NCBI GenBank assembly: GCA_030602565.1
Contig: JAUVZL010000023.1
Location: forward strand, 1-40,127
DNA: 40,127 bases
Reading direction: 5' to 3'
Source: Candidatus Stahliibacteriota bacterium
GTDB lineage: Bacteria; Hydrothermota; Tepidihabitantia; SM23-42
Positions within the stretch are counted from its first letter, which is position 1. Each line of letters begins with the position of its first letter. Shown here one piece after another: positions 12,442-20,979 of this stretch. The translations under genes and the position numbers were made by a program. The notes beneath the pieces are model-generated. The model was not told the DNA's origin, ran no database searches, and was given only the letters and a program-made list of their open reading frames with translations.

Positions 12442-13152
12442 TTAAACATATAATTTTTTTTCAAATATTGCCTTAGTTTCATTTTCTATTTTTTCCTTTG
12501 ACGGACTAAAATGTGATGAGCGACCAGTAATAAGCCTATCGTACTTGGTAAAAGTCTTGATTGAAATAGTTAAATATCTTGCTATTTGTCTGAAAGTCGG
12601 AGGGTTGGTTCTTTTTCCTTTTTGACTGTGTGCAATATATTGATTAACATATTTTTTTATGTCGTTAGAACTATCAATGACTTCTTCTATGTCTCTCTTT
12701 ATTACAACAGGACTCAAATAGTCGAAATTACCTACATATTTTGTGAATTCTCCATTTGCTCTTTTCTCTTCTTTTTTCTTAAGTCTAATAAAGAAAGAAT
12801 TACGATTTATGTAACGTGGATCTGTTACAACGTTTTCAATCATCATCTCAACATATTTTGCTCTGGCTATCAAAGAATGATGAGCAGCTATATCTCTTAA
12901 TAATACCAATAAAGAAAACGTGCGATTATCATTATCAACTAATCGCCTGATAGCTAGTGATGCACATGTACTATAGTTCGTGAGCAACCAATGTCGAAAA
13001 AATGTGTAGGAAAATGTCTGCAGGTTTTGATTCATCAATTTCACCATCTGTAGGTATATCAACCTTATTTCACGGAGATAGTTTAATTCCATAAAAATTG
13101 AATCTAACCACTCACGCCATTCTTCCGTTTTTTGCTTATATAATTCATCCAT
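12442..13152 (-). CDS. AbiU2-like HEPN protein
   Basis: 236 aa, all helical. Residues ~66-88 read LAIRRLVDNDNRTFSLLVLL, close to the conserved segment of AbiU2-type HEPN proteins (RRxxD then SLxxLL), and ~171-175 contain NQYIAHSQKG, a degenerate HEPN RxxxxH-type site in which Arg is replaced by Asn. AbiU2 belongs to a lactococcal abortive-infection system; RNase activity is uncertain given the changed motif. The first ATG (13152) is about 25 nt after a strong GAGGAGG, so either spacing is poor or an unusual start (ATA or ACG) is used. It is transcribed from the conserved promoter/leader at 13199-13289. Confidence 0.6.
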   Translation of the reverse strand: MDELYKQKTEEWREWLDSIFMELNYLREIRLIYLQMVKLMNQNLQTFSYTFFRHWLLTNYSTCASLAIRRLVDNDNRTFSLLVLLRDIAAHHSLIARAKYVEMMIENVVTDPRYINRNSFFIRLKKKEEKRANGEFTKYVGNFDYLSPVVIKRDIEEVIDSSNDIKKYVNQYIAHSQKGKRTNPPTFRQIARYLTISIKTFTKYDRLITGRSSHFSPSKEKIENETKAIFEKKLYV

Positions 13153-13418: not shown

Positions 13419-14138
13419 TCATTCGTAGATTCCTTCTATTAATTTCTGTTCAAAGTTATACCGATCCGCATTTTTACTTCTCCACGCAATTATCCAGTTG
13501 TGACAATCAATTAATCTAGTATATGGCATATCCGATATACTTAAGGCAATTTGCTGCTTTATTTCATTTGCCTCTATTTTCACAACGATCTCTCTATACA
13601 TCTTTATTAGAAAGTACGCATAAGCCTTTCCGTATTTACCTGTAGATCTGAGACACGCCATGAACTTACTGTCAGTGCCTTTATAATAATCAATTATTGC
13701 ATTATCCCAAGGAATAAAGACATCTGGATTAAGAGCATGAAGTAATTTCGAAAGGGCTACATGCTTGAAGCGCGACTTCGGATTTTTCTCGTCGATTTTG
13801 TTTTGTATTTCATCAAAAAGAGCACTAATTTCATTTTGCTGACTACTGACTTCTACTATTTTGGCATCTAGTAACGTCCGATATTTTTGGTTCACAAAAA
13901 TCGCCCGCATTATCGCTTTAAAGAATTTATCAGTGATTTTTGCCCTGCATCGTCCCCAAGTGTTAATGAATCTCTTAACAACTCTAATATCCTCTCTGTC
14001 AATCTTCTCAAATTCTGCATTTTTGATTTTTGAAGTAATTCCTTTAAACTTCAGCATACATTCACGATAGAACAAATCTAATCCTACTCTTACAGCAAAA
14101 TCTGTAATATTTTTATTGAATTCTTCAACTTGAACCAT
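13419..14138 (-). CDS. Unknown island protein (239 aa)
   Basis: A mixed helical protein. Its most distinctive part is KHVALSKLLHALNPDVFIPW, then DNAIIDYYKG at ~120-155, a pattern I have seen in uncharacterised proteins of genomic islands but cannot name. The C-terminal part has LIDCHNWIIAWRSKNADRYN. No catalytic triad or membrane segment is evident. The ribosome binding site AGAGAGGTAAT precedes the ATG at 14138. It lies 24 bp downstream of the nuclease-like gene at 14163, so the two are probably one operon and may be functionally linked. Confidence 0.65.
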   Translation of the reverse strand: MVQVEEFNKNITDFAVRVGLDLFYRECMLKFKGITSKIKNAEFEKIDREDIRVVKRFINTWGRCRAKITDKFFKAIMRAIFVNQKYRTLLDAKIVEVSSQQNEISALFDEIQNKIDEKNPKSRFKHVALSKLLHALNPDVFIPWDNAIIDYYKGTDSKFMACLRSTGKYGKAYAYFLIKMYREIVVKIEANEIKQQIALSISDMPYTRLIDCHNWIIAWRSKNADRYNFEQKLIEGIYE

Positions 14139-14162: not shown

Positions 14163-14651
14163 TTATGTTTTGTTCATATTTATCTCAATTAATTCTAGTT
14201 CACGTTCTGTAAGTACTATGATCCTTGTTCGGGGCTTCATATCAATGAGATATCTATAAGTATTGACTTTGTAATCAACAAAAGTTTGTTTTGATAGCTT
14301 TTCTTTTGTTGAATAAAGCACAATAACCCCAACCTGAGCACTTAGTGTATCCAAATTAGAAGCACTCCCTTTAATCGTTTTAGGAGAATTTGAGACTTCA
14401 TCTACTTCGAAACCTATAACAGGTAATACAAAATCGGTATCAAGAGAAGGTTTTCCTCCTTTTCTTTTTCTACCCTTCTGATCTACTGGCACAATGCCGT
14501 CAAACCATTCACCTTTTATCCGTTTATCCAACCAGACTACATCTGGCCACGATGATCGTGCTTGTCCAGAGCCGACTTCATCATATACTACAAAACCTAT
14601 TTTCTCACCCATTTTCTTAATTTTATCCTTAATTGAACTATGCTTATCCAT
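14163..14651 (-). CDS. Putative PD-(D/E)XK-like nuclease (162 aa)
   Basis: The start is the second of two adjacent ATGs (14651), five bases after GGAGG. Residues ~5-45 (IKDKIKKMGEKIGFVVYDEV, SSWPDVVWLDK) and ~78-90 (VLPVIGFEVDEVSNSPKTIK) resemble the D...ExK core of restriction-like folds, with the Lys of ExK replaced by Asp (EVD). It ends with a beta-alpha unit (VGVIVLYSTKE). The size suits a small restriction-type nuclease or an inactive relative. A broken small reading frame lies just upstream and the 13419 gene just downstream, in what looks like one transcription unit. Confidence 0.45.
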   Translation of the reverse strand: MDKHSSIKDKIKKMGEKIGFVVYDEVGSGQARSSWPDVVWLDKRIKGEWFDGIVPVDQKGRKRKGGKPSLDTDFVLPVIGFEVDEVSNSPKTIKGSASNLDTLSAQVGVIVLYSTKEKLSKQTFVDYKVNTYRYLIDMKPRTRIIVLTERELELIEINMNKT

Positions 14652-14699
14652 CATAACCTCCTTTTCTGGAAATATATACTGCTGATAAGATACAAGACG

Positions 14700-14916: not shown

Positions 14917-15035
14917 GATGGCAGGTTATCTCAATACTTCCTCTCTCTGACTTCGTTAGACTCGAGACTATAGCGACACTTTCAACTTGTCATTCGACAA
15001 AATCTAAAGTCTCGGCTGGTTTTTTTAATTAGAAA
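14917..15035 (+). repeat. Dispersed repeat, copy B
   Basis: Gap-free match to 12215-12333. Here CGAGACT / AGTCTCG and TTGTC / GACAA form stems before GCTGGTTTTTTT, giving a terminator-like 3' end. The sequence after 15035 leaves the shared core found in copies A, C, D and E. Confidence 0.75.
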
Positions 15036-15131
15036 CTGTTGAGGATTGCGACAGGTGGGGGTTGTGATCGTGTCATTTGGTCGGAAAGGGTCTGGATTGG
15101 CACTGAAATGGGACCAGTTTTAGGGTAGTTC

Positions 15132-15212
15132 GTTAACCTTTTTAAAAGACTTAACGATTTTCTATATTCCCACCATAATTTCGGCGCCGTTAAGTTTTTA
15201 AAAATACTTAAC
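15132..15212. promoter_or_regulatory. Two 24-bp palindromic operator-like sites
   Basis: Both sites have GTTAA at one end, ACTTAAC at the other and a T5A4/A5 centre: 15132-15155 and 15189-15212. They begin 57 bp apart and lie just upstream of the promoter for the 15253 regulator. They are likely binding sites for that regulator or another repressor. Confidence 0.6.
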
Positions 15213-15219
15213 TTTGTTC

Positions 15220-15247
15220 TTGATTTTATCTCTATCATAGTTATAAT
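15220..15247 (+). promoter_or_regulatory. Promoter of the Mor-like/DUF4365 operon
   Basis: TTGATT (15220-15225), 16-bp spacer, consensus TATAAT (15242-15247). The predicted transcript start falls on the ATG at 15253. Confidence 0.7.
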
Positions 15248-15252
15248 TCTAT

Positions 15253-15594
15253 ATGAAAAATTTTTATCGGGCTGGCGATGTGTTTAAAGATTTCCCTGAT
15301 GATATAAAAAACAAAATTTTCGAGGCGGCTGCAGGAAAGTTGGTGTATTTTCCGAAGATTCAAAAAAAAAGATTTAATAATAAGGAAGAAGTTTTGATTA
15401 AATATGCTAAAAGTAAAAAATCATATAGTCAGATCGGTGAGAAATTAGGCGTTAGTAAAGTAAGGATTTTTCAAATTATAGATCAGGAAAGGAAACAATT
15501 TTCAAAAGAGAGGGTCGAGTATTGGAAGAGTCGGGGGTTATCATTAAGAGAGATTGCGAGATTATTTAAGAAATCACACGAGGCAGTGAGGTAA
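15253..15594 (+). CDS. Mor-like helix-turn-helix regulator
   Basis: 113 aa. Residues ~28-80 recall the Mor/C family DNA-binding region: GKLVYFPKI followed by SYSQIGEKLGVSKVRIFQII. A second helix-turn-helix-like stretch closes the protein (YWKSRGLSLREIARLFKKSH), as in sigma factor region 4. No ribosome binding site is present, and the TATAAT ends five bases before the ATG, so translation is probably leaderless. Two palindromic sites upstream suggest autoregulation. It is the first gene of an operon with the DUF4365-TPR gene 10 bp downstream. Confidence 0.65.
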   Translation: MKNFYRAGDVFKDFPDDIKNKIFEAAAGKLVYFPKIQKKRFNNKEEVLIKYAKSKKSYSQIGEKLGVSKVRIFQIIDQERKQFSKERVEYWKSRGLSLREIARLFKKSHEAVR

Positions 15595-15604
15595 CCGGAT
15601 TTCC

Positions 15605-17179
15605 ATGAAACGCACTCGCGAGCAAATATTAGAGGATGAATCAAGACAAGCCCTTAGGCAATTTTTACCTCTCGAATGGATTGTCACAGACAAATTTGAC
15701 CATGATCACGGCATTGATATCGGAGTACAAATAGTTAAAAACGGTGAAATAACGAACAAAGTTCTTTGGATACAACTTAAAGCAACGAGGAAAGAAAAGT
15801 CACCTTCACCGAAGGGGATTTGTTATCAGATGAAGACTAAACATCTGAGATACTATGAAGAGTGCCGTCTGCCGGTAGTTATAATATTTTGGATTCAACC
15901 TGCACAGAAATTTTATTACTTATTTGTGCAAAAATACATTAAAGAGAATCTTTCGTATATCAAACCCACATGGAGAAAGCAGAAGAGTGTGACGATAGTG
16001 TTCCCTGCTGATACAGAGCTTAAGGACGCAAGAGAGTTAGATTGTGTAGCGACAGATGGCTATTTTTACGTAATCGAAAACGAACTACGTCGCAAATCAG
16101 GACTGGGGCCGTTCTACTGGATCGATGGTATCCCACAGTCCGACGACGCTGAATTGAAGGAAAGGTTTTTAAAGGCTATGCGACATTTATGCGATGAAGA
16201 CTATACCGCAGCAATAAAGGATTTCAAAGATGCAATGAAATATTGTGCGATTTCGCCCAGAGAAAAAACCGCGATGCTAATTAGCATGGGCACCGCTTAC
16301 TCAACTTTAGGTCAATACAATAAAGCTATGGAAAACTATAGAGTAGCTGTCAAATTACTACGGAAATTGGAAGATGCGGACGCGCTCGTAGGTAAAGCAA
16401 GCTTGCTAAATAACATCGCAAGAGTCTACGCGATTAGGGGGCAATTTGACAAGGCGCTAAGGTGTTTGGAAGATTCCCTTAGTATCACCAGAAAAATCGA
16501 CGATAGGCGTGGAGAAGCCCTTACTTTGTTAAACATTGGTCACGTGAACAAACTTAAATCGGAATTGAACGTAGCGCGTAAATATTACTCCAAGGCATAT
16601 CACATGTTTGAGCGAATCGGAGATACAAAAGGAGTAGCCATGCAACTGATGCACATTGGTCTGATTTACATGAACGCGGGTCACGAAGACCAAGCGCTGA
16701 AGAATTTTCAAAGCACTCTTCGCACAGCTAGGATCCTCGAGAACACAGAACTAGAGGCGGCGGCATTGGGGAATATTGGCTTGATTCATCACCATAAAGG
16801 GAAGATAACCGAGGCATTGAAATATCATAGAAGAGCTCTCAAGCTTTTTAAGAAGATCGGGATTATTCAGGGCGAAGCTGAGCAGAATTTGAACATCGGT
16901 CTGGTCTATAAGGAGAAAGGCGAATTGCAGAAGGCGATGCGATACTATACGAGGGCCTGCACAATATTCAAGCAAATAGGTTACAGAAAAGGAGAAGCAC
17001 AAGCACTCGGGAATATAGGATTTCTTTACGCGATGGAGTCACGTCCAACTAGGGCAATAATCTATTCTGCGGATTCTCTCAAAATTTTCAAAGAAATCGG
17101 TGATAAGCAAGGTGAGCGGAAGCAATCAAGAAATATCGAATTGATTTTGCAATTTTATTTTTCTGCCAAAGGGAAATAA
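15605..17179 (+). CDS. DUF4365 nuclease-like domain fused to TPR repeats
   Basis: 524 aa. Residues 1-~150 are a DUF4365 domain, a restriction-like fold, with E12, D38 in HDHGIDIGVQ and the Q57-x-K59 motif in VLWIQLKATRKEK. Residues ~185-510 are at least seven tetratricopeptide repeats, e.g. AMLISMGTAYSTLGQYNKAM, ALGNIGLIHHHKGKITEALK. DUF4365 proteins often accompany defence genes; TPRs usually recognise partners or peptides. Start is at the ATG at 15605 with a weak, distant GAGG. The helical gene at 17216 follows closely. A nuclease-sensor role is inferred. Confidence 0.8.
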   Translation: MKRTREQILEDESRQALRQFLPLEWIVTDKFDHDHGIDIGVQIVKNGEITNKVLWIQLKATRKEKSPSPKGICYQMKTKHLRYYEECRLPVVIIFWIQPAQKFYYLFVQKYIKENLSYIKPTWRKQKSVTIVFPADTELKDARELDCVATDGYFYVIENELRRKSGLGPFYWIDGIPQSDDAELKERFLKAMRHLCDEDYTAAIKDFKDAMKYCAISPREKTAMLISMGTAYSTLGQYNKAMENYRVAVKLLRKLEDADALVGKASLLNNIARVYAIRGQFDKALRCLEDSLSITRKIDDRRGEALTLLNIGHVNKLKSELNVARKYYSKAYHMFERIGDTKGVAMQLMHIGLIYMNAGHEDQALKNFQSTLRTARILENTELEAAALGNIGLIHHHKGKITEALKYHRRALKLFKKIGIIQGEAEQNLNIGLVYKEKGELQKAMRYYTRACTIFKQIGYRKGEAQALGNIGFLYAMESRPTRAIIYSADSLKIFKEIGDKQGERKQSRNIELILQFYFSAKGK

Positions 17180-17215
17180 GATATGCAACTATTGAGGAGT
17201 GAGAGAGGAGATTCG

Positions 17216-17980
17216 ATGGTAATTGAGGATTTGAGGAATTATCTGGAACGACAATTAATGCTTTTTTATCCGGCAGAGTACGTTCCGAAGTTTGTATTAT
17301 CGACCCGAGACATTTTTTCCAACCGAGAGCTCCTCAAATCTATAAAATTCAATAATGCTGCCTTGGACCATCTGTTGAACATTGTTCTTAGGGACATTCG
17401 AGAGAAGAAGCGATTTAGAAGAATTGAATGCCTTAAGGTTATTAGGTCAATTATTAAACGAAGAGGATCTAGTCAACTCATAGAAGCAGCTGTGCTTAGA
17501 AAGTTATTTAGTCTGTATAAGACATTTGTTTTCGATAACCGTGAAAAAATATTATGGTGTATAAGTTCTTTCATCAAGGATCAGATTTTAGAGAAGGAGG
17601 AAATTGAGTGGCTAATCCATAACTATAAAAAATCTGTTCATATCGTAAATAGATTGCTCAGATATCCAACGAAAAACAAATTAGTGATCAATTGGGCAAA
17701 GAGGGTTTACTTAAAAAGAGAGTTAAGAGATAGGGCTTCGGAAGTTTTAGCTTTGTTGATTGACAGAGAGATTCCTTCTTTTGTTGAGGAAAGTAATCCA
17801 CAAACATTGATCTGGGGAATCTATTACGCCAGAATCACGGATGAGGCAAAACAAGAGTTGCTCAAAAAATATGGTCCTAAGTCTGTATATACAACTGTGG
17901 AAATATGTACGAGACTCGGATATCCGGCAGTTATCGAATTTATGCTTCAGGAATTAGCCAAAAAGTCTATTGAGGAGTGA
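17216..17980 (+). CDS. Unknown all-helical protein, partner of DUF4365-TPR
   Basis: The ATG at 17216 is chosen because GAGAGGAGA lies seven bases upstream; an ATG at 17183 has none. About 254 aa, rich in Leu, Ile, Arg and Lys, with helical pairs such as LLNIVLRDIREKKRFRRIEC and LFSLYKTFVFDNREKILWCI that suggest HEAT-like repeats. No family is recognised and there is no membrane segment. It is the third gene of the regulator/DUF4365 operon. Its stop codon lies inside the first unit of a tandem 46-bp repeat. Confidence 0.65.
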   Translation: MVIEDLRNYLERQLMLFYPAEYVPKFVLSTRDIFSNRELLKSIKFNNAALDHLLNIVLRDIREKKRFRRIECLKVIRSIIKRRGSSQLIEAAVLRKLFSLYKTFVFDNREKILWCISSFIKDQILEKEEIEWLIHNYKKSVHIVNRLLRYPTKNKLVINWAKRVYLKRELRDRASEVLALLIDREIPSFVEESNPQTLIWGIYYARITDEAKQELLKKYGPKSVYTTVEICTRLGYPAVIEFMLQELAKKSIEE

Positions 17981-18112
17981 GAGAGGTGGGTAGTTTTGGC
18001 AGTATTATTTGTTTGCCGATGACTGAGAAAGGTGGAGGATTTTGGTCGTGTCATTTGTTTATTGATGAGTGAGAGAGATAGGTGGTTTTCGAGGTGTTAT
18101 TTTTATAACCAA
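17975..18112 (+). repeat. Three tandem imperfect 46-bp repeats
   Basis: Units start at 17975, 18021 and 18067, each opening GAGTGAGAGA or GACTGAGAAA, followed by a GGTGG motif and TTTTGG/TTTTCG. The first unit overlaps the end of the 17216 gene. A related stretch (GATCGTGTCATTTGGT) occurs near 15065, upstream of the same operon. Function is unknown; iterons or regulatory repeats are possible. Confidence 0.65.
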
Positions 18113-18177
18113 TGCGGAGTTTATCTAATTAATCAGGTGACATGATCATAAAAAATTTTTCTCGCAATCAGTAACAA

Positions 18178-18210
18178 GAAACCGCTGCAATTTTTTATAA
18201 GTGACCCTAA
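18178..18210 (+). repeat. Dispersed repeat core, copy C
   Basis: AGAAACCGCTGCAATTTTTT followed by ATAAGTGACC matches the core of copies A, D and E. Confidence 0.6.
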
Positions 18211-20325: not shown

Positions 20326-20979
20326 CTAATTGATTTCCGACTCAGCTAAATTCTTTATTAATTTGTCATAGTTTTCTAACCATGAACTAATAAAATCCAC
20401 ATAGTCGGGGTAAGTTAATTCTTCAATTTGCATTCTCATTTCTTCACACATATGAGGCAAATCTTGCTTGAATTCCACAAACCTTTCGTAAATAAACCTA
20501 CCTCCAGGAATATTTGAATCATTAGTTTCTGTCCTTAGCCAACTGCGTAATTTCTTGATGAGGGTTTCTTGACTGTTATTATGGGACTTAATGTCCTGGC
20601 CTGCTATATCGGAGATAAATTTTTGATAACGGAATTCTTCGTTATCAAAAATCAAGCACCTTTTTTCACGGTGCGACTGTCCACCATATCGGATACAACC
20701 CAGAAATACACCCAACTCTAATGACATGTTGAATCGCGGCAATTTATTCATTTTGTCAAGCTCGGTGCGGGAAATATCGTGTATCCCATACTTACATTCA
20801 TTTATTATAGTCATTATTTTATCAAGTCTATTTCTTGAAGCATCAGCAACCTCCAAGGCGCATCTTGCTATATACCCAGCATTATGAACGGTAAAAACAA
20901 TAGCTTGAAAGAGAGGTTCATACTCATCATCAAATGGGCAGTTTATAAAAACATTTAGTTTATACTTATCAGCGGTCAT
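20326..20979 (-). CDS. Deoxyribosyltransferase/TIR-like protein
   Basis: 217 aa. It has the pattern of a common island family: KLNVFINCPFDDEYEPLFQA, CKYGIHDISRTELDKMNKLP, RFNMSLELGVFLG (E88) and KFISDIAGQDIKSHNN. The Rossmann-like order and the Glu in MSLELG recall nucleoside 2-deoxyribosyltransferases and TIR/SLOG-type NAD-processing proteins, which act as defence effectors or signal makers. The enzyme activity is inferred. It starts 5 bp after the stop of the 20985 gene, so three genes (21562 to 20326) form one operon under leader 2. The C-terminal ~50 residues form an extra helical part. Confidence 0.65.
   Translation of the reverse strand: MTADKYKLNVFINCPFDDEYEPLFQAIVFTVHNAGYIARCALEVADASRNRLDKIMTIINECKYGIHDISRTELDKMNKLPRFNMSLELGVFLGCIRYGGQSHREKRCLIFDNEEFRYQKFISDIAGQDIKSHNNSQETLIKKLRSWLRTETNDSNIPGGRFIYERFVEFKQDLPHMCEEMRMQIEELTYPDYVDFISSWLENYDKLIKNLAESEIN

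Follow-up and report, generated by a model that had tools for sequence, protein, structure and literature searches.

Genes and termini at the locus

An operon of three genes lies on the forward strand of the window, by which we mean the whole 40,127-nucleotide stretch of DNA that was analysed. A first-pass annotation had recorded a Mor-like regulator, a DUF4365/TPR protein, a helical protein, two upstream dyads, three 46-bp repeats and a related upstream copy, all of which exist. We found that they all belong to a single mobile element of 3,140 bp, which spans window 15037-18176. Termini and cargo were compared with those of three phages (G293 and G294, two 43-kb viral contigs, and G025, a prophage with tail genes), three other loci (G017, G016 and G005) and the element's own genome (G000). 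The features are:

15031-15036, no strand: target-site duplication AGAAAC, left copy; the same 6 bp stand directly outside both termini
15037-15082, forward: left terminus (L end), TGTTGAGGATTGCGACAGG...TGATCGTGTCATTTGGT, matching the left ends of the G293, G294 and G025 phages and of the G017 element
15131-15156, no strand: candidate dyad operator 1, CGTTAACCTTTTTAAAAGACTTAACG, from the dyad count
15188-15212, no strand: candidate dyad operator 2, immediately 5' of the -35 box, from the dyad count
15220-15247, forward: sigma-70-like promoter, TTGATT-16-TATAAT, whose transcript would be almost leaderless
15253-15594, forward: gene 1, Mor/C-like double-HTH regulator of 113 aa, from matches to left-end proteins, Pfam and PHROG
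15605-17179, forward: gene 2, 524 aa, DUF4365 (PD-(D/E)XK-like, GID38...Q57-x-K59) and a TPR solenoid (residues about 180-520)
17183-17980, forward: gene 3, probably an all-helical protein of up to 265 aa; its start may be the ATG at 17216
17189-17208, forward: partial L-type repeat of 20 bp that precedes gene 3 where genes 2 and 3 meet, an exact repeat of 17967-17986
17968-18105, forward: three tandem 46-bp L-type repeats (about 17968, 18014 and 18060), from the phage-terminus model
18121-18176, reverse: right terminus (R end), TGTTACTGATTGCGAGAAAAATTTTTTATGATCATGTCA, from the R-end model and matches to the right ends of relatives
18177-18182, no strand: target-site duplication AGAAAC, right copy

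The upstream copy had been recorded as a fragment near 15065. The recorded piece belongs to a full-length copy that begins at 15037, and this copy, unnoticed as such in the earlier annotation, constitutes the left terminus of a transposable element. Among 150 simulated windows the highest score was 19.3, against 50.1 for this terminus, and in the alignments of the L end the flanks diverge exactly at TG. The right terminus, read on the reverse strand from 18176, lies 64 bp past the interval first annotated. It scored 34.1 with a model built from phage ends only, and E = 1.5e-14 with an R-end model of which the window sequence is itself a part; it matches the right ends of G293, G294, G025, G016, G017 and G005. 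The two ends are inverted, in the form TG...CA, and both are flanked by AGAAAC (chance of a match at both junctions 3.6e-4 at fixed positions). Because AGAAAC immediately before 15037 recurs outside the R end at 18176, the element was delimited as 15037-18176. We infer from this anatomy that it is mobile. No empty site (...TTAATTAGAAAC/CGCTGC...) was found from a close relative.

The three 46-bp repeats were scored with a model made from phage termini only and yielded 20.5 (17968), 31.8 (18014) and 16.0 (18060). Relative to the simulated windows (95th percentile 16.2) the first two exceed every maximum and the third lies near the 95th percentile. These scores identify the repeats as degenerate copies of the phage left end, standing in direct orientation beside the right end. 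The earlier suggestion that flanking repeats may help transfer of the unit is supported. The partial repeat at 17189-17208 doubles as a purine-rich, Shine-Dalgarno-like stretch. A genome-wide intergenic repeat was rejected as an explanation, with three matches at the locus and one match with 3 mismatches elsewhere (control 2). A search of Rfam for a known RNA gave no match.

Phage left ends, regulator and operators

By sequence comparison, gene 1 and the DNA upstream of it make up the left end seen in a group of transposable phages, because copies recur in G025, G293 and G294 and a distant homologue lies beside a Mu-like transposase and ATPase. This distant homologue (L012:1483-1851, in a WOR-3 genome) sits between the two genes, overlapping the stop of the transposase and meeting the start of the ATPase. 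The gene 1 product is 56%, 52% and 54% identical to the left-end proteins of G025, G293 and G294, respectively. Its match to Pfam Mor (PF08765, E = 8.5e-5) reached 23.0 bits against a cut-off of 24.9, which the phage orthologues in G025 (30.1 bits) and G294 (25.0 bits) both reach, and it matched the PHROG late transcriptional activator at E of about 1e-4. Among 293 relatives the only close homologue was the one in G025, located there 5' of a protein kinase gene.

The phages were recognised as such by a transposase with an AAA ATPase, an S24 repressor and Mu-like tail genes. G293 carries a gene 1 copy, an S24 repressor, a restriction enzyme, a methylase and a transposase; its other end starts TGTTGCTGATTGCGA...TGATCGTGTCATTTGGT, inverted, with the duplication GAATAG on the flanks, and the window has the same right-end sequence at 18176, on its minus strand. 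G294 also has a gene 1 copy and is flanked by a 6-bp duplication, ACCATG. In G025 the right end abuts Mu-like tape-measure and baseplate genes, and the DNA upstream of the gene 1 homologue aligns with the window over a 46-bp copy, two dyads in the same place and a similar promoter, the outer sequence diverging exactly at TGTTGA. A similar promoter stands at the same place in G293. The slot after gene 1 is occupied by a type II restriction enzyme, a methyltransferase and Vsr in G294, by a restriction enzyme and a methyltransferase in G293, and by a PD-T4-6-like kinase in G025, where an MTase-Mrr fusion follows further on.

Two dyads of the form CGTTAA-N-CTTAAC were found where 0.03 were expected. 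The two-dyad arrangement was present at all five left ends examined (window, G017, G025, G293 and G294), in the four others upstream of gene 1 or its start, and a perfect dyad of the G293 type occurs in G293 at the left end only. The half-sites differ: the window and G017 have CGTTAAG, G025 and G293 have AAAGTAAA, and the form in G294 is mixed. In the gene 1 proteins, the recognition region varies in step with the half-sites (VSKVRIFQ vs. LSKMRICQ). Autoregulation of gene 1 through these candidate operators is well supported by their position, and the self-regulation predicted by the first-pass annotation appears to hold. The centre of dyad 2 is near -53. A position there, just upstream of the -35 box, is usual for an activator site, and activation by gene 1 would fit this placement.

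Several further observations were made on phage ends. An N6/N4 DNA methyltransferase gene lies directly inside the right end of two phages (L044:3930-5519 and L045:11148-12716). A 15-mer scan of viral sequences returned 77 stretches, with a convincing end only in L108. Viral pattern matches in L028 and L030, which have identical sequence and no terminal TG, were rejected as chance.

Small elements and alternative explanations

The element codes for its three genes only, with neither a DDE transposase nor an ATPase of its own. A homologue of the phage transposase was not found in the own genome, a 96% complete draft of 104 contigs, in a search with one distant query that found the G293 transposase at 8e-70 and missed any in G025 despite the phage ends there. 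A helper phage could be absent from the draft assembly. Pattern searches of the own genome gave exactly one forward and one reverse terminus, that is, one L/R pair, and strong terminus matches in 147 genomes of the phylum were confined to G000, G005, G016, G017 and G025. The element is thus present as a single copy in its own genome, with one related element in G005 and a gene-less one of 190 bp in G016, which has an inner L-type copy and no duplication. G005 belongs to another genus; the last 77 bp of its right end, and the tandem repeats ahead of them, show a close alignment to the window. At positions 46-80 bp from the right terminus the window is 83% identical to G005 and 3-69% identical to the phage right ends. 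The G005 right end adjoins a DUF5677 gene and a WD-like gene, four tandem L-type copies are present together with one full repeat directly 5' of the cargo gene, and the left end of the element falls inside an assembly gap of 100 N at L039:9469-9568. A repeat-bearing right end common to two elements with different genes points to a family of small elements rather than to one deleted prophage. Gene-less stretches of about 94 bp with phage-like ends were also seen, one in the own genome (G000:C77, L100 about 482-577) and two in G005 (L040:8809-8901 and L041:15067-15161), with no target duplication recognised.

On the basis of the inverted, phage-like TG/CA ends, the 6-bp duplication, the failure to find a transposase and the G005 element with the same right end, we consider it likely that 15037-18176 is a non-autonomous Mu/B3-like element that is mobilised in trans by phage and carries a self-regulated cargo operon, probably one that limits competitor phages. 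A full Mu-like phage that inserted here and then shed the whole interior between left-end cargo and right end would leave an identical duplication and both ends, in a remnant that is immobile or only incidentally mobile. By the target duplication alone such a remnant and a mini-element look alike; the likeness of the right end to G005 and the G016 element favour the latter. Gene 1 followed by a cargo gene is what one would expect to remain of a left end, and phages with the window-type left end do occur in the same order. However, the inner right end, made up of three L-type repeats and the terminal sequence, is common to G005 and unlike the phage right ends, the 190-bp element of G016 also has an inner L-type copy, and the genes in the window are intact. 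We therefore regard an internally deleted prophage as unlikely.

The 46-bp repeats could also be read as recombination sites of an integron- or CALIN-like cassette array. In both elements the cargo gene does have a repeat on either side, and a gene for a XerA/integron-integrase-like tyrosine recombinase lies just inside the phage-type right end of G017 (L043:2921-3946). Yet as single strands the repeats fold no better than shuffled sequence, which is not what an attC-like site would show, they resemble phage termini, and the outer boundaries have a DDE-type duplication; a cassette array is accordingly very improbable. Still harder to sustain is the framing of the first-pass annotation, a resident defence operon that happens to stand between unrelated repeats. 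It would suit a neighbourhood with defence-like genes (an AbiU2-like HEPN protein), but it is contradicted by the inverted, phage-matching ends and the 6-bp duplication, the regulator is a phage left-end gene, and the trio is not conserved. The proposed conserved three-gene nuclease system was not borne out, gene 3 being found in 0 of 199 relatives and the gene 2 architecture in 0 of 293, with gene 1 standing beside unrelated cargo. Loss of synteny in relatives, or a lack of palindromes near homologues, had been named beforehand as refuting that system; the trio was indeed not syntenic there, while palindromes were present near the gene 1 homologues. The mobile-element reading explains why the three-gene system is not conserved.

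Cargo, proposed mechanism and known systems

The DUF4365 domain of gene 2 was identified with Pfam at E = 2.2e-21, together with TPRs. The protein matched the PDB entry for DREN-APAZ (9jsb) at E = 1.8e-8 with GID and QxK aligned, and the structure model had high confidence in the TPR part, not in the N-terminal domain. The Q and K of the motif are predicted active-site residues; in a related DUF4365 nuclease they were mutated to obtain an inactive form (PMC10810196). Gene 2 shares the nuclease domain and its GID...QxK motif with the SPARDA / DUF4365-APAZ nucleases described there, and differs from them in having a TPR solenoid in place of APAZ; no Argonaute partner was found among nine proteins scanned near the operon. 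The first scan of genome contigs for gene 2 and the phage search for gene 2 / DUF4365 gave no matches, and plasmid matches to DUF4365 were distant only. Family searches with gene 3 returned no credible match, viral contigs held no homologue, and its single-sequence structure model consists of helices only, with low confidence (pLDDT 57, too weak for a fold search).

In our preferred reading, the element would have kept, from the left end of the phage, the terminal site, both dyads, the promoter and the Mor-like autoregulator, as well as a right end, the transposase, head and tail genes having been replaced by the DUF4365-TPR gene and the helical-protein gene. On entry or induction of a related phage, the phage transposase would act on the element ends in trans and move the element, which might also be carried into particles along with flanking host DNA. 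Gene 1 would bind the two dyads and so control its own promoter and the operon. Because the cargo stands where the phages have restriction-modification and kinase genes, an action against competing phages seems most likely; the TPR domain would sense a partner or trigger and the DUF4365 nuclease would cut nucleic acid. Gene 2 would then most likely harm incoming competitors or the infected cell upon the TPR-sensed trigger, a defence role that is suggested by neighbourhood and domain analogy. The internal L-type repeats may serve as extra terminal copies for alternative L-R pairing, resulting in cargo shuffling or very short elements, or they may instead titrate the transposase. Such pairing could fit the short elements observed.

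The three-gene unit, with ends, regulator gene and operators derived from Mu-like transposable phages of WOR-3 bacteria and with no transposase, has the appearance of a small hitchhiker, one that could be moved by such phages. It shares TG...CA inverted ends, a duplication within the 5- or 6-bp range and a Mor/C-like regulator with the Mu/B3-like transposable phages (saltoviruses), and its relatives have the transposase, AAA ATPase and Mu-like tail genes; unlike these phages, which span about 36-43 kb and have virion genes, it measures 3.1 kb and lacks transposase, structural and lysis genes. For B3-type transposable phages, the combination of TG-CA ends and a 6-bp scar has been published as the signature (PMC8705779). 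The presumed dependence on a helper transposase through end sequences is likewise a property of MITEs and 'hitcher' elements (PMC11389934), from which the element differs in that it has three protein genes, MITEs having none, and in that the apparent helper is a transposable phage, not an insertion sequence. Known phage satellites, and the 'hitcher' elements covered by that review, make use of integrating phages, conjugative elements, integrons or insertion sequences; the text of the review contains neither 'transposable phage' nor 'Mu-like' (PMC11389934). If our reading is true, a cargo-bearing hitchhiker adds transposable phages to this list of helpers and provides a simple route of spread for candidate defence genes, for which end sequences alone are needed.

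Laboratory mini-Mu elements also consist of phage ends with the interior swapped for cargo; the present element is natural and has extra L-type copies inside its right end. The phage satellites PICI and PLE are small, have their own regulator and depend on a helper phage. The element resembles them in size, in its own regulator, in its candidate anti-phage cargo and in a likely dependence on a helper phage; it has no integrase or packaging genes and would be moved by transposition. No satellite of transposable phages was described in the open literature searched, coverage of which was incomplete. As a tentative and rather doubtful generalisation, natural satellites of transposable phages may exist that retain the phage ends and autoregulator, are moved and packaged in trans, bear anti-phage genes that can be exchanged, and employ tandem left-end copies within the right end to swap cargo or to titrate the helper transposase. 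A search for the two phage termini within a few kilobases of each other is a way to find such units.

Upstream of the element lies a defence-like neighbourhood. An AbiU2-like HEPN protein above the Pfam cut-off is encoded at 12442-13152 on the reverse strand, with two unexplained genes near it (13419-14138 and 14163-14654). On the other side, the product of 20326-20979 (reverse strand) matches the CAP12/Pycsar TIR domain very weakly (E = 0.08).
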